Shown one piece after another: positions 39,928 to 43,859 of a stretch of 64,000 nt of DNA. Source of the DNA: Parvibaculum sp. (lineage in GTDB: Bacteria; Pseudomonadota; Alphaproteobacteria; Parvibaculales; Parvibaculaceae). The stretch is from NCBI GenBank assembly GCA_030645235.1, contig JAUSMV010000005.1, forward strand, positions 62,001 to 126,000, written 5' to 3'. The translations under genes were made by a program, and so were the position numbers. Within the stretch, counting starts at the first letter, position 1. Each line of letters starts with the position of its first letter. The notes under the pieces were generated by a model, which worked only from the letters and a program-made list of their open reading frames with translations, was not told where the DNA came from and did not search any database.

Positions 39928-40081
39928 TCAACCCTCCCCTTGAGGGAGGGTCAAAAAATCATCTTTGATTTTTTGGGGCGGGGTCTGAGTCTCTCGTACA
40001 ATTCCGAATTCTCAGTTTCCTTCGTTCCCCCTCCCCAAACGGCAAAGGTGCCGTTTGACCCTCCCTCAAGGGGAGGGTTGA
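39928..40081. repeat. Multi-hairpin palindromic element, copy A
   Basis: A perfect 28-bp terminal inverted repeat (39928-39955 and 40054-40081) encloses further hairpins. Left: CCCTCCC with GGGAGGG (5-base loop), then AAAAAATC with GATTTTTT (loop ATCTTT), then GGGGCGGGG. Right: CCCCCTCCCC, then AAACGGCA with TGCCGTTT (loop AAGG), then the second CCCTCCC with GGGAGGG. It lies between ppi and queA, with no coding content. Copies B and C share this order but differ in stem sequence. Confidence 0.85.
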
Positions 40082-40133
40082 TTAAGATAAGTTGCCGCGT
40101 CGCCGCACCTTACATTGTCGTATAAACAACTTC

Positions 40134-40151
40134 GGGGGCCGTCAGGCCCCC
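40134..40151 (+). other. Isolated hairpin upstream of queA
   Basis: GGGGGCC, loop GTCA, GGCCCCC forms a strong 7-bp stem 26 bases before the queA start. No T-run follows on either strand, so it is not a convincing terminator; a role in queA expression is possible but unsupported. Confidence 0.4.
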
Positions 40152-40176
40152 GCACCATTTGAAAACCAAAAAACCC

Positions 40177-41232
40177 ATGCGCGTTGACGACTTCGATTTC
40201 GATCTCCCTGAAGAGCTGATCGCGCTGCGCCCCGCACGCCCGCGCGACAGCGCCCGCATGCTCGTCATCGGCCCCGGTCACAATGCGCTTGCCGATCACA
40301 GCGTCAGCACCTTGCCCTCCTTCCTGCGTCAGGGCGACGTCCTCGTCTTCAACGACACCCGCGTCATCCCCGCCCGCCTCTTCGGCACGCGCCTGCGCGC
40401 TGAGGCCCGCGCCAAAATCGAAGCGCTCCTGCACAAACGCGAAACAGGCGACACATGGCGCGCCTTCGTGCGTCCGGCGAAAAAACTCAAAACCGGCGAA
40501 CGCATCGACTTCGCAAACGGCCTCACAGCCCGCGTCGAAGAAAAAGGCGAGGGCGGCGAAGCCCTCCTGCGCTTCTCTGAAAACGCCGCAGCCCTCGACG
40601 CCGCCATAGCCCATGCAGGCGAGATGCCGCTCCCGCCCTATATCGCGCGCAAACGCCCGACCGATGAGGCAGACTTCAGCGACTATCAGACCATGTATGC
40701 CAAACATTTAGGCGCGGTCGCAGCCCCCACAGCAGGCCTCCATTTCACCCCGAAGCTGATGGCCGGTCTCGAAACGCGGGGCGTCACCACCGTGCGCCTC
40801 ACGCTCCATGTCGGCGCAGGCACATTCCTCCCCGTGGCCGTCGATGACACCGACGCCCATAAGATGCATGCCGAATGGGGCGAGATCACAGCCGCCGCCG
40901 CCGCAACCATCAATGAGGCGAAAGCCCAGGGCGGGCGCATCATAGCTGTCGGCACAACGTCAATGCGCCTGCTCGAATCCGCTGCCACCGAAGACGGCCT
41001 CGTCAACGCTTTCAGCGGCGACACCGATATTTTTATCACGCCCGGCAAAACCATCCGGGTCGTGGACATGCTGATGACAAATTTCCATCTGCCGCGCTCA
41101 ACACTTTTCATGCTCGTCTCCGCCTTGCGCGATACCGACGAAATGAAACGCGCCTATGCCCACGCCATTGCGCACAAATATCGTTTCTATTCTTATGGCG
41201 ACACGAGCCTGATTTATCGTGCAGGTACTTAA
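40177..41232 (+). CDS. queA: SAM:tRNA ribosyltransferase-isomerase, queuosine pathway
   Basis: Penultimate enzyme of queuosine synthesis, adding the epoxycyclopentane ring from SAM onto preQ1 in tRNA. The 351-residue protein starts [20 protein letters not shown], the family-typical N-terminus, and includes [36 protein letters not shown] and [14 protein letters not shown]. The ATG at 40177 was chosen over a TTG six codons upstream. It is followed with no gap by tgt, so the two queuosine genes are co-transcribed. Confidence 0.96.
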
Positions 41233-42372
41233 ATGAGCGAATTTAGTTTCACGCTGAAAGCAACCGACGGCATGGCCCGTACCGGCGCGGTCCACACGCC
41301 GCGCGGCGACATCCGCACGCCTGCGTTTATGCCGGTCGGCACAGCCGCCACCGTCAAAGCGCTTTACATGGATCAGGTGCGCGACGCAGGCGCCGATGTG
41401 ATCCTCGGCAACACCTATCACCTGATGCTCCGTCCGGGCGCTGAGGAAGTGCATGCGCTTGGCGGCTTGCATAAATTTGCCAACTGGCCTTATCCGATCC
41501 TGACCGACAGCGGCGGCTTTCAGGTCATGTCGCTCACATCCTTGCGCAAAATGACGGAGGAGGGCGTCACCTTCGCCTCCCACATCGACGGCTCGCGCCA
41601 CATGCTGACGCCGGAACGCAGCATCGAAATTCAATGCCTCTTGGGCTCCGACATTCAGATGCAGCTTGATGAATGCACGCCGTTCCCCGCGACCCATATC
41701 GAAGCCGAAAAATCGATGGAACTGTCGCTCCGCTGGGCCAAACGCTCGCGCGCAGCCTTTGAAACGCAGCCGCACCGCACAGAGGGTCAGGCGCTCTTCG
41801 GCATCGTGCAGGGCAGCACCTATCCCGATCTGCGCAAACGCTCAATCGAAGGCCTCACCGATATCGGCTTTGAAGGCTATTCCATCGGCGGACTGGCGGT
41901 CGGCGAAGGTCAGGAGATGATGCTCCGCACCCTCGACACGACAACGCCGCTCATGCCACGCGACAAACCGCGCTATCTGATGGGCGTCGGCACACCGGAC
42001 GATCTTGTCGAGAGCGTCCGTCGCGGCATCGACATGTTCGATTGCGTGATGCCCACGCGCAACGGCCGCCACGGGCTTGCTTTCACGCGGTTCGGCAAAG
42101 TTAATTTCAAGAACGCCCGCCACGCCAAAGACAACCGCCCGCTCGACGAACAGAGCACATGCCCCGCCGCGCGCGACTATTCGCGCGCCTATCTGCACCA
42201 CCTCATAAAGTCGGGTGAAATGCTCGGCTCCATGCTCGTGAGCTGGATCAACATTGCCTACTATCAGGACCTGATGGCAGGCATGCGCGCCGCCATTGCC
42301 GAAGGCCGATTCGACGCTTTTGTGGCTCAATTCAAAGCCGATCAGGCCGCAGGCGACATCGAAAAGCAGTAG
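41233..42372 (+). CDS. tgt: tRNA-guanine transglycosylase, zinc site degenerate
   Basis: Exchanges guanine-34 of target tRNAs (Asp, Asn, His, Tyr) for preQ1. The 379 residues keep both catalytic aspartates, Asp92 (LTDSGGFQV) and Asp270 ([11 protein letters not shown]). Using a constant 10-residue offset to the Zymomonas enzyme numbering (Asp102 and Asp280), its zinc ligands Cys318, Cys320, Cys323 and His349 map to Ser308, Cys310, Ala313 and Ile339 here, so three of four are lost. The structural zinc site is therefore likely absent. The gene starts one base after queA and ends before tRNA-Lys. Confidence 0.93.
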
Positions 42373-42416
42373 GAAACGGCGACAACACGCCCCACCAAAA
42401 TAAGCGCCATATCCGG

Positions 42417-42445
42417 TTGACCCGGACAGCAGTCGCCGTTAGGTT
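42417..42445 (+). promoter_or_regulatory. Candidate promoter for tRNA-Lys
   Basis: TTGACC and TAGGTT are separated by 17 bases, 15 bases before the mature tRNA start, with a strong -35. Placement is right for a separate tRNA transcript after tgt. Confidence 0.55.
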
Positions 42446-42460
42446 CCGCCCACTTGTTGA

Positions 42461-42536
42461 GGGTCCGTAGCTCAGCTGGTAGAGCACTCGACTTTTAATC
42501 GAGTTGTCCCGGGTTCGAGCCCCGGCGGACCCACCA
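42461..42536 (+). tRNA. tRNA-Lys, anticodon UUU
   Basis: 76-base cloverleaf with encoded CCA. Acceptor stem GGGTCCG pairs with CGGACCC; the D-arm is GCTC..GAGC; the anticodon stem CTCGA/TCGAG encloses loop CTTTTAA, giving anticodon TTT (UUU, lysine); the T-arm is CCGGG TTCGAGC CCCGG. All stems pair fully. The position after tgt is notable only by adjacency; Lys is not a queuosine tRNA. Confidence 0.98.
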
Positions 42537-42633
42537 AGATCTCCAAATCTATTCGCCGCCATTCCCTCCAGGCCATGCGCGGGTTCGACCCGCGTATCCA
42601 CGTCTTCCTGATTTTCATCCGTCTTTCTCTTCA

Positions 42634-42809
42634 CCTCCCCCTTGTGGGGAGGTCAAAATTTCACTTGAGAAATTTTGGGTGGGGGGAACGACATTCAATA
42701 TGTGCTGCGCCTTCTCGATGGACAGCGACCCCCACCCAAAAAATCTAAGCAGATTTTTTGACCTCCCCACACCTTGCGCGTAGGCGCAAAGAAAAGGAGA
42801 GGGGAGGTC
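42634..42809. repeat. Multi-hairpin palindromic element, copy B
   Basis: Same modular order as copy A with different stem bases. Left: CCTCCCC/GGGGAGG (loop CTTGT), AAAATTTC/GAAATTTT (loop ACTTGA), GGGTGGGGGG. Right: CCCCCACCC, AAAAAATC/GATTTTTT (loop TAAGCA), then CCTCCCC and GGGGAGG separated by 32 bases that hold an extra TTGCGC/GCGCAA hairpin. It occupies most of the roughly 300-base gap between tRNA-Lys and the convergent GreA/Rnk-like gene, where no gene is visible. Confidence 0.85.
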
Positions 42810-42837
42810 AAAAGACGTTAGAGACAATACTCAGCCC

Positions 42838-43299
42838 TCACGCCGCCCCCGGCCCATCATCGTCCGGCCTCAAGCTCGAGCGCCGACGCACTTCCGCTTC
42901 GGGTTGAAACTCCACATCAAGCAGATGCAATTCCAAAGCACCGCCATCAACAAGCGGCGCAGTAAGCTTGTCACCCGCGCGACAGCCGAGCAGCGCGAGA
43001 CCCACAGGCGTCAGCAGATTGATGAACTGCCCATTGGGATGCGACACATCCGGCAGAGACAAAGTGCGCCTCTGGATCGCACCATCGCCGATCTGGTAGC
43101 GCAGCACGCTGCCGATCGTGGCGATGTCATCGGCAATGTCATTGCCGTTTATGAAAAGCGCATTGTCGAGCTTGGCCGAGATCTGCTGTCGCAAATCGCC
43201 TCCCGCTTCAAGCGCCATCGTTTCGAGGCGGGCCGCATCATGCGCAGACAAGACGAGACCCTTCGCTGCGGCGCGTGCCGCATCATGAATTTGAGACAT
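42838..43299 (-). CDS. GreA/GreB C-terminal-domain protein, Rnk-like
   Basis: 153-residue protein resembling the C-terminal half of transcript cleavage factors GreA/GreB and the nucleoside-diphosphate-kinase regulator Rnk. It has an N-terminal helical segment and a FKBP-like core with VLRYQIGDGAIQRRTLSLP, the INLLTPVGLALLGCRAGD segment, and a short charged C-terminal tail. Lacking the long coiled-coil with the two acidic tip residues, it should bind RNA polymerase without stimulating cleavage, as Rnk does. GGAG lies 9 bases before the ATG. It converges on tRNA-Lys. Confidence 0.78.
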   Translation of the reverse strand: MSQIHDAARAAAKGLVLSAHDAARLETMALEAGGDLRQQISAKLDNALFINGNDIADDIATIGSVLRYQIGDGAIQRRTLSLPDVSHPNGQFINLLTPVGLALLGCRAGDKLTAPLVDGGALELHLLDVEFQPEAEVRRRSSLRPDDDGPGAA

Positions 43300-43614
43300 G
43301 GAAATGCTCCGTCAGGACAGCGGCTCACAAAAAGCGGCTGTCTGAGTCAGAATGGATTGGATTGAGGATGGGGTGACGTTCACCGGATCGCGGACAGGCA
43401 ATAGCGTGCCGGACCCGGCTTACGCTCCTGCGAGAAGCGTACCGGGTATATCGCGACGTGTGCCCGCGGCGAAGCCGCATGCTGCACATGAAAAAATGGC
43501 GAACGTGATCATCATGGGGATAATGTTAGGTCGGGCAGGGGATAAGTCAACCGTCACGACCGGACATAAGGTAGCAGCGAAAACGGGCATAAGTTTTCGA
43601 CATGTGACCCTTCA
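43300..43614. other. Intergenic region upstream of the GreA/Rnk-like gene
   Basis: Leader of the GreA/Rnk-like gene and spacer before element C. I see no gene with a credible ribosome site, no RNA gene and no confident promoter. A short GACAGC/GCTGTC inverted repeat near 43318-43344 is the only local feature. Confidence 0.6.
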
Positions 43615-43758
43615 CTTCCCCCTATGGGGGGACAAAAAATCCTCTTAGGGCTTTTGGGTGGGGGTAACTAAAGTCACTGCAGTTTCAGATTTTGACGTGA
43701 GGCAATGTCCTCCGCCCAAAATATTCAAAGATGAATATTTTAATCTCCCCGCCTGAGG
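43615..43758. repeat. Multi-hairpin palindromic element, copy C (degenerate)
   Basis: A worn relative of copies A and B. Left: CCCCC/GGGGG with loop TAT, an imperfect AT-rich stem, then GGGTGGGGG. Right: a CCGCCC tract, a perfect 9-bp AAAATATTC/GAATATTTT stem (loop AAAGAT), then a decayed CTCCCC..GAGG. The A/T stem differs from A and B yet pairs fully. It lies in the gap between the carbonic anhydrase and the GreA/Rnk-like gene. Confidence 0.75.
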
Positions 43759-43859
43759 ATTTCTCCAAAAGCCCATCACGCCCGCACTCGACGAACGGAA
43801 CTACAATCTCTGCATGGAAACACTCGATCTCTTGCAAGAAACACTGACTGATCGACGAG

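Follow-up and report, generated by a model that had tools for sequence, protein, structure and literature searches.

REPIN-like palindromic elements in Parvibaculum and their association with genes for DUF559 nucleases

The REP and REPIN repeats of bacterial genomes are usually regarded as the business of RAYT transposases. They are high-copy intergenic palindromes, often found as inverted pairs about a short spacer, the transposase gene is itself flanked by inverted copies, and one genome may hold several distinct enzymes, each paired with a repeat type of its own (parts of PMC2817692 and PMC3116915); these features recur in the elements reported here. Similar in being high-copy palindromes are the GTAG- and CGTC-tagged REPs, of which the CGTC-tagged ones are mostly alphaproteobacterial (passages of PMC3733652), and similar in being multi-stem palindromic repeats with fast turnover are Br-REP1 and Br-REP2 of Bradyrhizobium (passages of PMC5082802). 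On the enzyme side, the DUF559 domain shares a fold with the Vsr mismatch endonucleases and is related in sequence and fold to the catalytic domain of I-Bth0305I, a homing endonuclease of Vsr-like fold, and the DUF559-domain protein VsrA of Caulobacter has been interpreted as a nuclease of mismatch repair (part of PMC12907096). The elements described below, found across many Proteobacteria, look like another and so far unrecognised form of the partnership between REP repeats and their transposases, one in which an unrelated enzyme fold seems to underlie the REP/REPIN lifestyle.

The window analysed here is a 64,000-nucleotide stretch of a Parvibaculum sp. genome (contig JAUSMV010000005.1, positions 62,001 to 126,000), in which the initial annotation had noticed three multi-hairpin elements, A, B and C; their extents and order of parts were right on re-reading of the sequence, and the half coordinates given here are covariance-model placements. 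Element A has a type V2 left half at 39931..39983 on the plus strand (R1 score 72.1 bits), made up of an outer hairpin ACCCTCCC/GGGAGGGT, an inner hairpin CAAAAAATCA/TGATTTTTTG and the tract GGGCGGGG, followed by a strandless 44-nt spacer (39984..40027) and a V2 right half at 40028..40078 on the minus strand (63.6 bits), the inner hairpin of which, CAAACGGCA/TGCCGTTTG, is unlike that of the left half. Element B has a type V1 left half at 42633..42685, plus strand (72.6 bits; outer hairpin ACCTCCCC/GGGGAGGT, inner hairpin CAAAATTTC/GAAATTTTG, tract GGTGGGGG), a strandless 43-nt spacer at 42686..42728 that starts with GAACGA, as do a number of copies, and a V1 right half at 42729..42808, minus strand (57.5 bits), with the inner hairpin CAAAAAATCT/AGATTTTTTG and an outer-hairpin loop larger by about 26 nt, the extra nucleotides forming a small hairpin of their own as in some other copies. 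Element C consists of a decayed left half at 43617..43664, plus strand (32.3 bits), a strandless 44-nt spacer at 43665..43708 and a decayed right half at 43709..43760, minus strand (26.9 bits), with a weak outer hairpin. The claim that the inner stems always pair holds for the right inner stem of C (AAAATATTC/GAATATTTT) and fails at its left inner stem (AAAAAATCC/GGGCTTTT), which pairs incompletely.

Elements A and B are intact and C is decayed. The ends of A are complementary over 28 nt (100%) and the arms of B over 43 nt (81%); folded as single-stranded DNA, A and B give z values of -9.6 and -9.8, equalled by 0/200 shuffles in either case, and C gives only -3.2, equalled by 1/200. The halves of C score 32 and 27 bits against the covariance model, versus 57-73 bits for those of A and B. 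All three are intergenic, position having been checked for these three copies. At the Rfam gathering score no RNA family matched the elements, a tRNA being the sole match in the window. The closest relative (G003) carries none of the three at the corresponding sites, where the spacers are too diverged to fix the ends.

The surmise that these copies belong to an amplified, dispersed family was borne out by a covariance-model search of the genome and its relatives, which returned many more copies: 94 half-elements of at least 45 bits in the 3.83-Mb genome, and the family in 24 of 26 same-genus genomes. The repeat unit is the half-element, composed of an outer GC hairpin, an inner hairpin of variable sequence and a G-rich tract, and a full element is two inverted halves about a spacer of about 44 nt (43-45 nt in 33 of the 38 full elements of the genome, which were catalogued after three partial matches of 124 had been set aside). 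Omission of one full element without sequence left 37 for analysis, and one of these without a parsed left inner stem left 36 that were classed, in 35 of which the inner stems differ between the two halves. For one strand of 30 of the 37 elements a four-way junction is predicted, in which the ends would pair together, the two unlike inner hairpins would form side arms and the G tract would pair with the C tract. The idea that compensatory change had kept the fold rather than the sequence is borne out by an alignment of 45 halves (39 distinct) from this genome, which were taken from BLAST matches to B and are therefore related copies: 97.4% of the cells pair versus 86.2% in shuffles, both sides have changed in 11 of 18 stem pairs, and the covariation score is 0.346 versus 0.129, each of these values being reached by 0/500 shuffles; the number of pair types in the same alignment showed no excess over shuffles (176/500), and G-U pairs are few (7 of 682 paired cells). 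Orthologous sites give some independent support. Five species have unlike right inner stems at a single site (starting GAAAAA or GAGAAA); each is matched by its partner strand, leaving 1 or 2 of the 11-13 positions unpaired. In three relatives (G007, G017 and G016) one G-C pair of the A site is now A-T.

The partner of the elements had been invisible in the initial annotation: genes for DUF559 nucleases that are flanked by such elements. The genome holds three DUF559 (PF04480) genes, each with a different flanking element type. The gene at C58:780257-780577 is flanked by V1 halves, of which the left-hand one (32.9 bits) has no clean outer hairpin; that at C58:417658-417972 lies between two V2 elements, the outer end of the left element being degraded; and that at C58:1287392-1287706 lies between V3 halves. 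When 121 of the 124 model matches were used, three partial matches being left out, the sole adjacent plus/minus pair in the genome 100-3000 bp apart encloses a DUF559 gene. The genome also carries 42 V4 palindromes, yet no DUF559 gene with V4 flanks. The nucleases are about 110-120 residues long, and four proteins score 114-144 bits against the PF04480 profile (curated cut-off 20.6). Of the Vsr profiles, TIGR00632 gave only 19.8 bits for one of the three proteins (cut-off 97.85) and PF03852 gave no match in the genome; defence-system profiles gave only weak partial DpdF matches to two of the three. Relatives in sequence and fold are 3hrl, 3r3p (I-Bth0305I) and Vsr, the catalytic domain of I-Bth0305I matching DUF559 in sequence with E 1.3e-5. 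Purifying selection acts on the nuclease in the three groups examined (dN/dS 0.03-0.17, 18 pairs).

Within the genus, each DUF559 lineage matches its own flanking element type. A protein tree of 31 of the 35 same-genus DUF559 proteins, omitting the four loci without a typed half (L137, L139, L349 and L351) and counting as V3 one locus (L089) whose two sides gave V3 and a V1-like match, sorts by flank type without exception: the four types, assigned by half-element patterns in place of looser patterns that were ambiguous between V1, V2 and V3, need 3 changes, the minimum possible, with 0/200 shuffles as low, and 3 changes again when each of 19 sites is given one row. Over a wider set, DUF559 genes sit between inverted halves or between two full elements. 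Flanking inverted repeats (score of at least 14) were found at 60 of 99 DUF559 loci (beyond the genus, at 38 of 66) and not at the other 39, the loci being for the most part the top-scoring one of each genome, with 40 more picked by place among the matches listed, rather than a random draw; the corresponding values are 0/56 for windows 750-1100 bp off at the same loci and 28/300 for mismatched pairs. In a smaller set such repeats flank 28 of 54 DUF559 genes versus 0 of 30 genuine Vsr (PF03852) genes. A hairpin motif at a distance of up to 350 bp, on one side or both, occurs at 54 of 102 DUF559 loci, the other 48 having no hairpin of the searched motif, and at 0/30 Vsr loci, 0/12 RAYT loci (12 of 16 rows) and 2/56 distant windows. 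Short flanks had removed 1 of 55 loci from the smaller set and 3 of 102 from the enlarged one, and the Vsr control covers the smaller inverted-repeat set and the hairpin-motif set, as distinct from the enlarged 99-locus set.

Palindromes and DUF559 genes also occur together across genomes. In a set of 299 genomes from the phylum, three or more copies of a related palindrome are present in 70 of 86 with DUF559 versus 13 of 213 without (stratified by the 13 families holding both kinds, OR 50, p 6e-11). The suggestion of related GC palindromes elsewhere holds for other families of the class and for other classes of the phylum. One of the 13 DUF559-negative genomes has 134 palindromes, and 8 of the 86 DUF559 genomes have none of the searched kind. 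RAYT/Y1 transposases (PF01797) number 0 in the present genome and are found in 1 of 26 same-genus genomes, and among the 299 genomes they go in the opposite direction (19/111 versus 64/188); a RAYT/Y1 partner was ruled out on these three grounds. Within the genus, 8 of the 9 genomes without a DUF559 match still hold halves, five of these eight being less than 90% complete, and one genome (G018) has DUF559 with a V4 flank and no R1 half. The asd site, compared over 15 stretches and L153, is empty in nine species (L332-L340) and filled in five, with a different half in L341 and other sequence in L342; gene and element are there jointly present or jointly absent. Of the target duplications that had been sought as a sign of insertion, none stands clearly above shuffles: the 37 elements have no exact direct repeats of at least 4 nt, looser matches are near the shuffled level, and the filled and empty asd alleles differ by replacement, with no clean insertion.

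The results are best read as a REPIN-like system with a PD-(D/E)XK nuclease as its enzyme, and we think it probable that A, B and C belong to a population of mobile, non-coding palindromes that resemble REPINs and are partnered by a DUF559 nuclease, not by a RAYT transposase. We infer that the nuclease mobilises them. With its I-Bth0305I/Vsr fold it would recognise folded halves of its own type once these were exposed in single-stranded or extruded DNA and would cut there, after which repair or rejoining might copy or move the element; the unlike inner stems would prevent one long perfect palindrome and force the junction, and elements without a gene would be the non-autonomous majority. Counting against nuclease-driven spread are the elements without a gene, the DUF559 loci and genomes without repeats, the lack of duplications in the 37 elements, the replacement at the asd site and the mismatch-repair reading of Caulobacter VsrA.

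Part of the same evidence could be read another way, with the elements spreading by some other route and DUF559 acting as a homing endonuclease parasite that cuts an element and inserts its own gene. Its kinship to I-Bth0305I, the position of the gene in the spacer at several loci and the large excess of element-only copies over gene copies agree with this, but a pure parasite would not cause palindromes to be rare where DUF559 is absent, and at several loci full elements stand on either side of the gene with no split element, so we regard a parasite as unlikely. The mobile-element reading was also set against a housekeeping or repair nuclease acting in Vsr-like fashion on cruciforms or palindrome mismatches, with the nearby elements as safe sites or regulatory targets. 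Template switching that corrects quasipalindromes is a mechanism that keeps stems matched and would account for the pairing here, and the scarcity of G-U pairs is expected if pairing is maintained at the DNA level. The Vsr-like fold and the report on Caulobacter VsrA (part of PMC12907096) point the same way; the patchy presence of the gene, the several diverged copies per genome with their own flanking types, and the joint presence or absence of gene and element at the asd site make such a role quite improbable.

Selection for RNA pairing, in 3'-UTR stem-loops with a role in transcript stability or termination, would suit the intergenic position of A, B and C and their strong folds. It is very hard to reconcile with the lack of an Rfam family, the absence by eye of a T-run following the hairpins in A and B, the few G-U pairs and the missing copies in the closest relative, and it leaves the nuclease gene unexplained. 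Size, inverted repeats and intergenic dispersal would likewise fit MITEs of the usual insertion-sequence kind, or REPINs served by a RAYT that had gone unseen; given no target-site duplication, a genome in which a search for the Y1 family found no transposase and the negative association across genomes, we attach almost no weight to either.

Beyond this genome, the chances seem evenly balanced that, throughout the Pseudomonadota, DUF559 proteins serve as cognate enzymes for an entire class of elements that resemble REPINs but have no relation to RAYT/REP, the nuclease recognising a Holliday-junction-like single-strand fold of the element and driving the element's copying, with the GGGAGAGGG...GGGTGAGGG palindromes of many of these bacteria as its substrates. 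If true, this would give the widespread unknown domain DUF559 a function as a repeat-dispersal nuclease, account for a type of GC palindrome that is common in the Alphaproteobacteria and in further classes of the phylum, and provide an independent replicate for the question of why bacteria retain such repeat populations; it may also alter the reading of DUF559 proteins such as Caulobacter VsrA.

The CIRs of Caulobacter are defined by a CcrM (GANTC) site within the repeat. The present elements, which like CIRs are intergenic inverted repeats of Alphaproteobacteria (Chen and Shapiro 2003; review literature), are set apart from them by description, GANTC occurring in only 5 of 37 full elements. 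The printed consensus of Br-REP1 and Br-REP2 is different, and the section describing them names no partner enzyme (PMC5082802). Unlike the gene of I-Bth0305I, that of DUF559 goes with a family of dispersed palindromes. In common with REPINs, the elements are inverted doublets with a short spacer in many copies (intergenic position checked for A-C); they differ in that neither a 5' GTAG/GTGG head nor a CGTC tag is seen by eye at the palindrome ends of the halves, that the hairpins are followed on their 3' side by the tract GGGTGGGGG (by eye, A2), that each half has two hairpins and a G tract with inner stems unequal between halves, and that the enzyme is a DUF559 nuclease in place of a Y1 transposase.

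The three multi-hairpin palindromic elements A (39931-40078, type V2), B (42633-42808, type V1) and C (43617-43760, decayed) all lie between genes, as the initial annotation had stated. A is flanked by what we take to be a ppiB-like gene and queA, B by a tRNA-Lys located after tgt and presumably a greA-like gene, and C by this same gene and one that we assume to be carbonic-anhydrase-like (gene names assigned from the protein sequences). A, B and C are all missing in G003, the closest relative by tgt (93%). The ppiB-queA spacer that carries A also holds a V2 element in three other genomes (loci L123, L126 and L127 in G007, G017 and G016, respectively); its inner hairpin is much longer there, and the species differ by a compensatory change.

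A full element consists of a spacer enclosed by two inverted halves. Read in one direction, each half contains an outer GC hairpin (ACCTCCCC-CTTGT-GGGGAGGT or ACCCTCCC-CTTGA-GGGAGGGT), a sequence-variable inner hairpin whose stems are mostly AAAAAATC, AAAATATTC or AAACGGCG, and a tract (GGTGGGGG or GGGCGGGG, GGGAGGGG). In some copies the outer loop contains a further, small hairpin. Across 37 full elements, the bases just outside tend to be TTCA at the left end and TGAA at the right end.

The elements form a dispersed family. A model built from 45 halves and searched at E up to 1 against the own genome (3.83 Mb; the window is 62001-126000 of contig C36) detected 124 matches, among which 94 scored at least 45 bits; 38 full elements have both halves above 45 bits, and the spacer is 43-45 nt in 33 of them. 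At E ≤0.01, halves were found in 24 of 26 same-genus genomes, in none of 10 genomes from other genera of the family, and in 8 of 24 genomes from other families of the class. Thus the proposals of an amplifying element and of related palindromes elsewhere in the class were both borne out. Scanning named genomes with a pattern yielded 89 stretches, and all 80 titles listed were proteobacterial, mostly MAGs labelled Alphaproteobacteria or Proteobacteria.

Base pairing of the stems is conserved. Across 39 distinct halves 97.4% of the cells are paired and 11 of 18 pairs are changed on both sides; the paired fraction, the two-sided changes and the covariation score all exceed 500 shuffles, which upholds the earlier suggestion of compensatory change with the fold kept, while the number of pair types is not above the shuffles (176/500). 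Since G-U accounts for only 7 of 682 paired cells, the evidence points to stem pairing kept in DNA. The stems had been described as changing yet always pairing, which fails for the left inner stem of the decayed C. Orthologous stems likewise vary and pair for the most part. In the spacer preceding an asd-like gene, five species have differing right inner stems, which pair except at 1-2 of 11-13 positions, and among the A-site elements of G007, G017 and G016 there is one two-sided change, with one mismatch in each. The inner-stem class differs between the two halves in 35 of 36 elements (0 of 20000 random pairings), and in the remaining one the two inner stems are unlike as well. Descent of the copies from V1 and V2 as two founders may account for this difference; unlike stems were also read in several copies from other species. 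The full element is predicted to fold as a junction: a four-way junction is the minimum-energy DNA fold in 30 of 37 elements, B falling outside by the criterion used, with its left inner arm unformed in the predicted fold.

Reading of the flanks located reading frames of the small nuclease family DUF559 between halves. The own genome has three DUF559 genes, in V1, V2 and V3 surroundings respectively, and the V1 reading frame runs into its right half, where its stop codon falls in the inner loop. Two arrangements are seen repeatedly, half(+)-gene-half(-) and full element-gene-full element; other loci have an element at one side only. At L168 (G230), the DUF559 match (1501-1806) has an inverted repeat on its flanks that scores 98 and contains a long, nested inner part. 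When the two 350-bp flanks of each gene were compared, an inverted repeat was present at 28 of 54 DUF559 loci and 0 of 30 Vsr loci in the first set, and at 60 of 99 DUF559 loci in the enlarged set versus 28 of 300 mismatched flank pairs, with 0 of 56 in distant windows. Genuine pairs thus stand about six times above mismatched pairs (61% vs 9%); a motif common to the families explains why the latter do not fall to zero. The hairpin motif occurs at at least one side of 54 of 102 DUF559 genes (both sides in 29), at 0 of 30 Vsr and 0 of 12 RAYT genes, and in 2 of 56 distant windows. Element type is coupled to nuclease lineage: the four groups in a tree of 31 DUF559 proteins equal flank types V1-V4 (0 of 200 shuffles as low), and a 19-site tree gave the same groups (0 of 200) with modest supports (bootstrap 66-96) and a V1 group of two sites only.

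The asd spacer holds both a full V1 element and a DUF559 gene in five species, and both are missing in nine of the species fetched; L341 (G009) carries a different, V4-like half there, a repeated use of this spacer. Among 299 genomes, 109 contain the pattern CCTCTCCCN{3,8}GGGAGAGG, and the backwards-read control occurred in 6 genomes among those listed with at most 7 copies. At least three palindrome copies were found in 70 of 86 genomes with DUF559 versus 13 of 213 without; within families the odds ratio is 50, a figure that still contains kinship inside families. RAYT was negatively associated. The fourth type, V4 (CCTCTCCC..GGGAGAGG), has 42 outer-hairpin copies in the own genome (places listed include C24, C36 and C55), where no V4-flanked DUF559 gene was found; such genes are present in the relatives G004 and G015. 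V4 counts are very high in G268 (503), G117 (324), G332 (301), G121 (204) and G284 (197), each with only 1-2 DUF559 genes, making these good test genomes. G304, G113 and G273 have 134, 57 and 34 V4 palindromes and no DUF559 match; a lost or replaced partner is conceivable. Elements persist without the gene in 8 of 9 same-genus genomes lacking DUF559, as does V4 in the own genome; by analogy with what may happen to REPINs, these may be left after enzyme loss, or the assemblies may be incomplete.

Nine columns are invariant in 54 DUF559 sequences (R13, E20, W24, F37, Q40, F50, E60, R78 and G86) and six are nearly so (D49, D62, H66, D75, W93 and N94). The structure model (pLDDT 84.9) matches 3hrl (gonococcal NGO0050) and the homing endonuclease I-Bth0305I, both also recovered by sequence with the DUF559 profile, and matches Vsr more weakly; a weaker Pfam match is the restriction-enzyme-like MTES_1575. 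The nuclease is under purifying selection, with dN/dS of 0.03-0.17 (18 pairs in three groups, dS being saturated in some pairs), and the protein therefore works for something; some copies, e.g., in G012 and G013, have an in-frame stop. We propose as the probable mechanism that the DUF559 nuclease cuts its own folded element and that such cutting drives element copying.

Searches with the motif letters returned only papers titled on other organisms or topics, and none of 14 papers mentioning DUF559 was on repeats as judged by titles and abstract starts, subscription journals being mostly outside the search; within that coverage the DUF559-palindrome system was not found described. Membership in the REPIN/RAYT partnership of palindromes and Y1 transposases was rejected, as tests for both found neither its enzyme in the own genome nor its head motif in these elements. 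In its layout, the DUF559-linked system nevertheless works like REPIN/RAYT.
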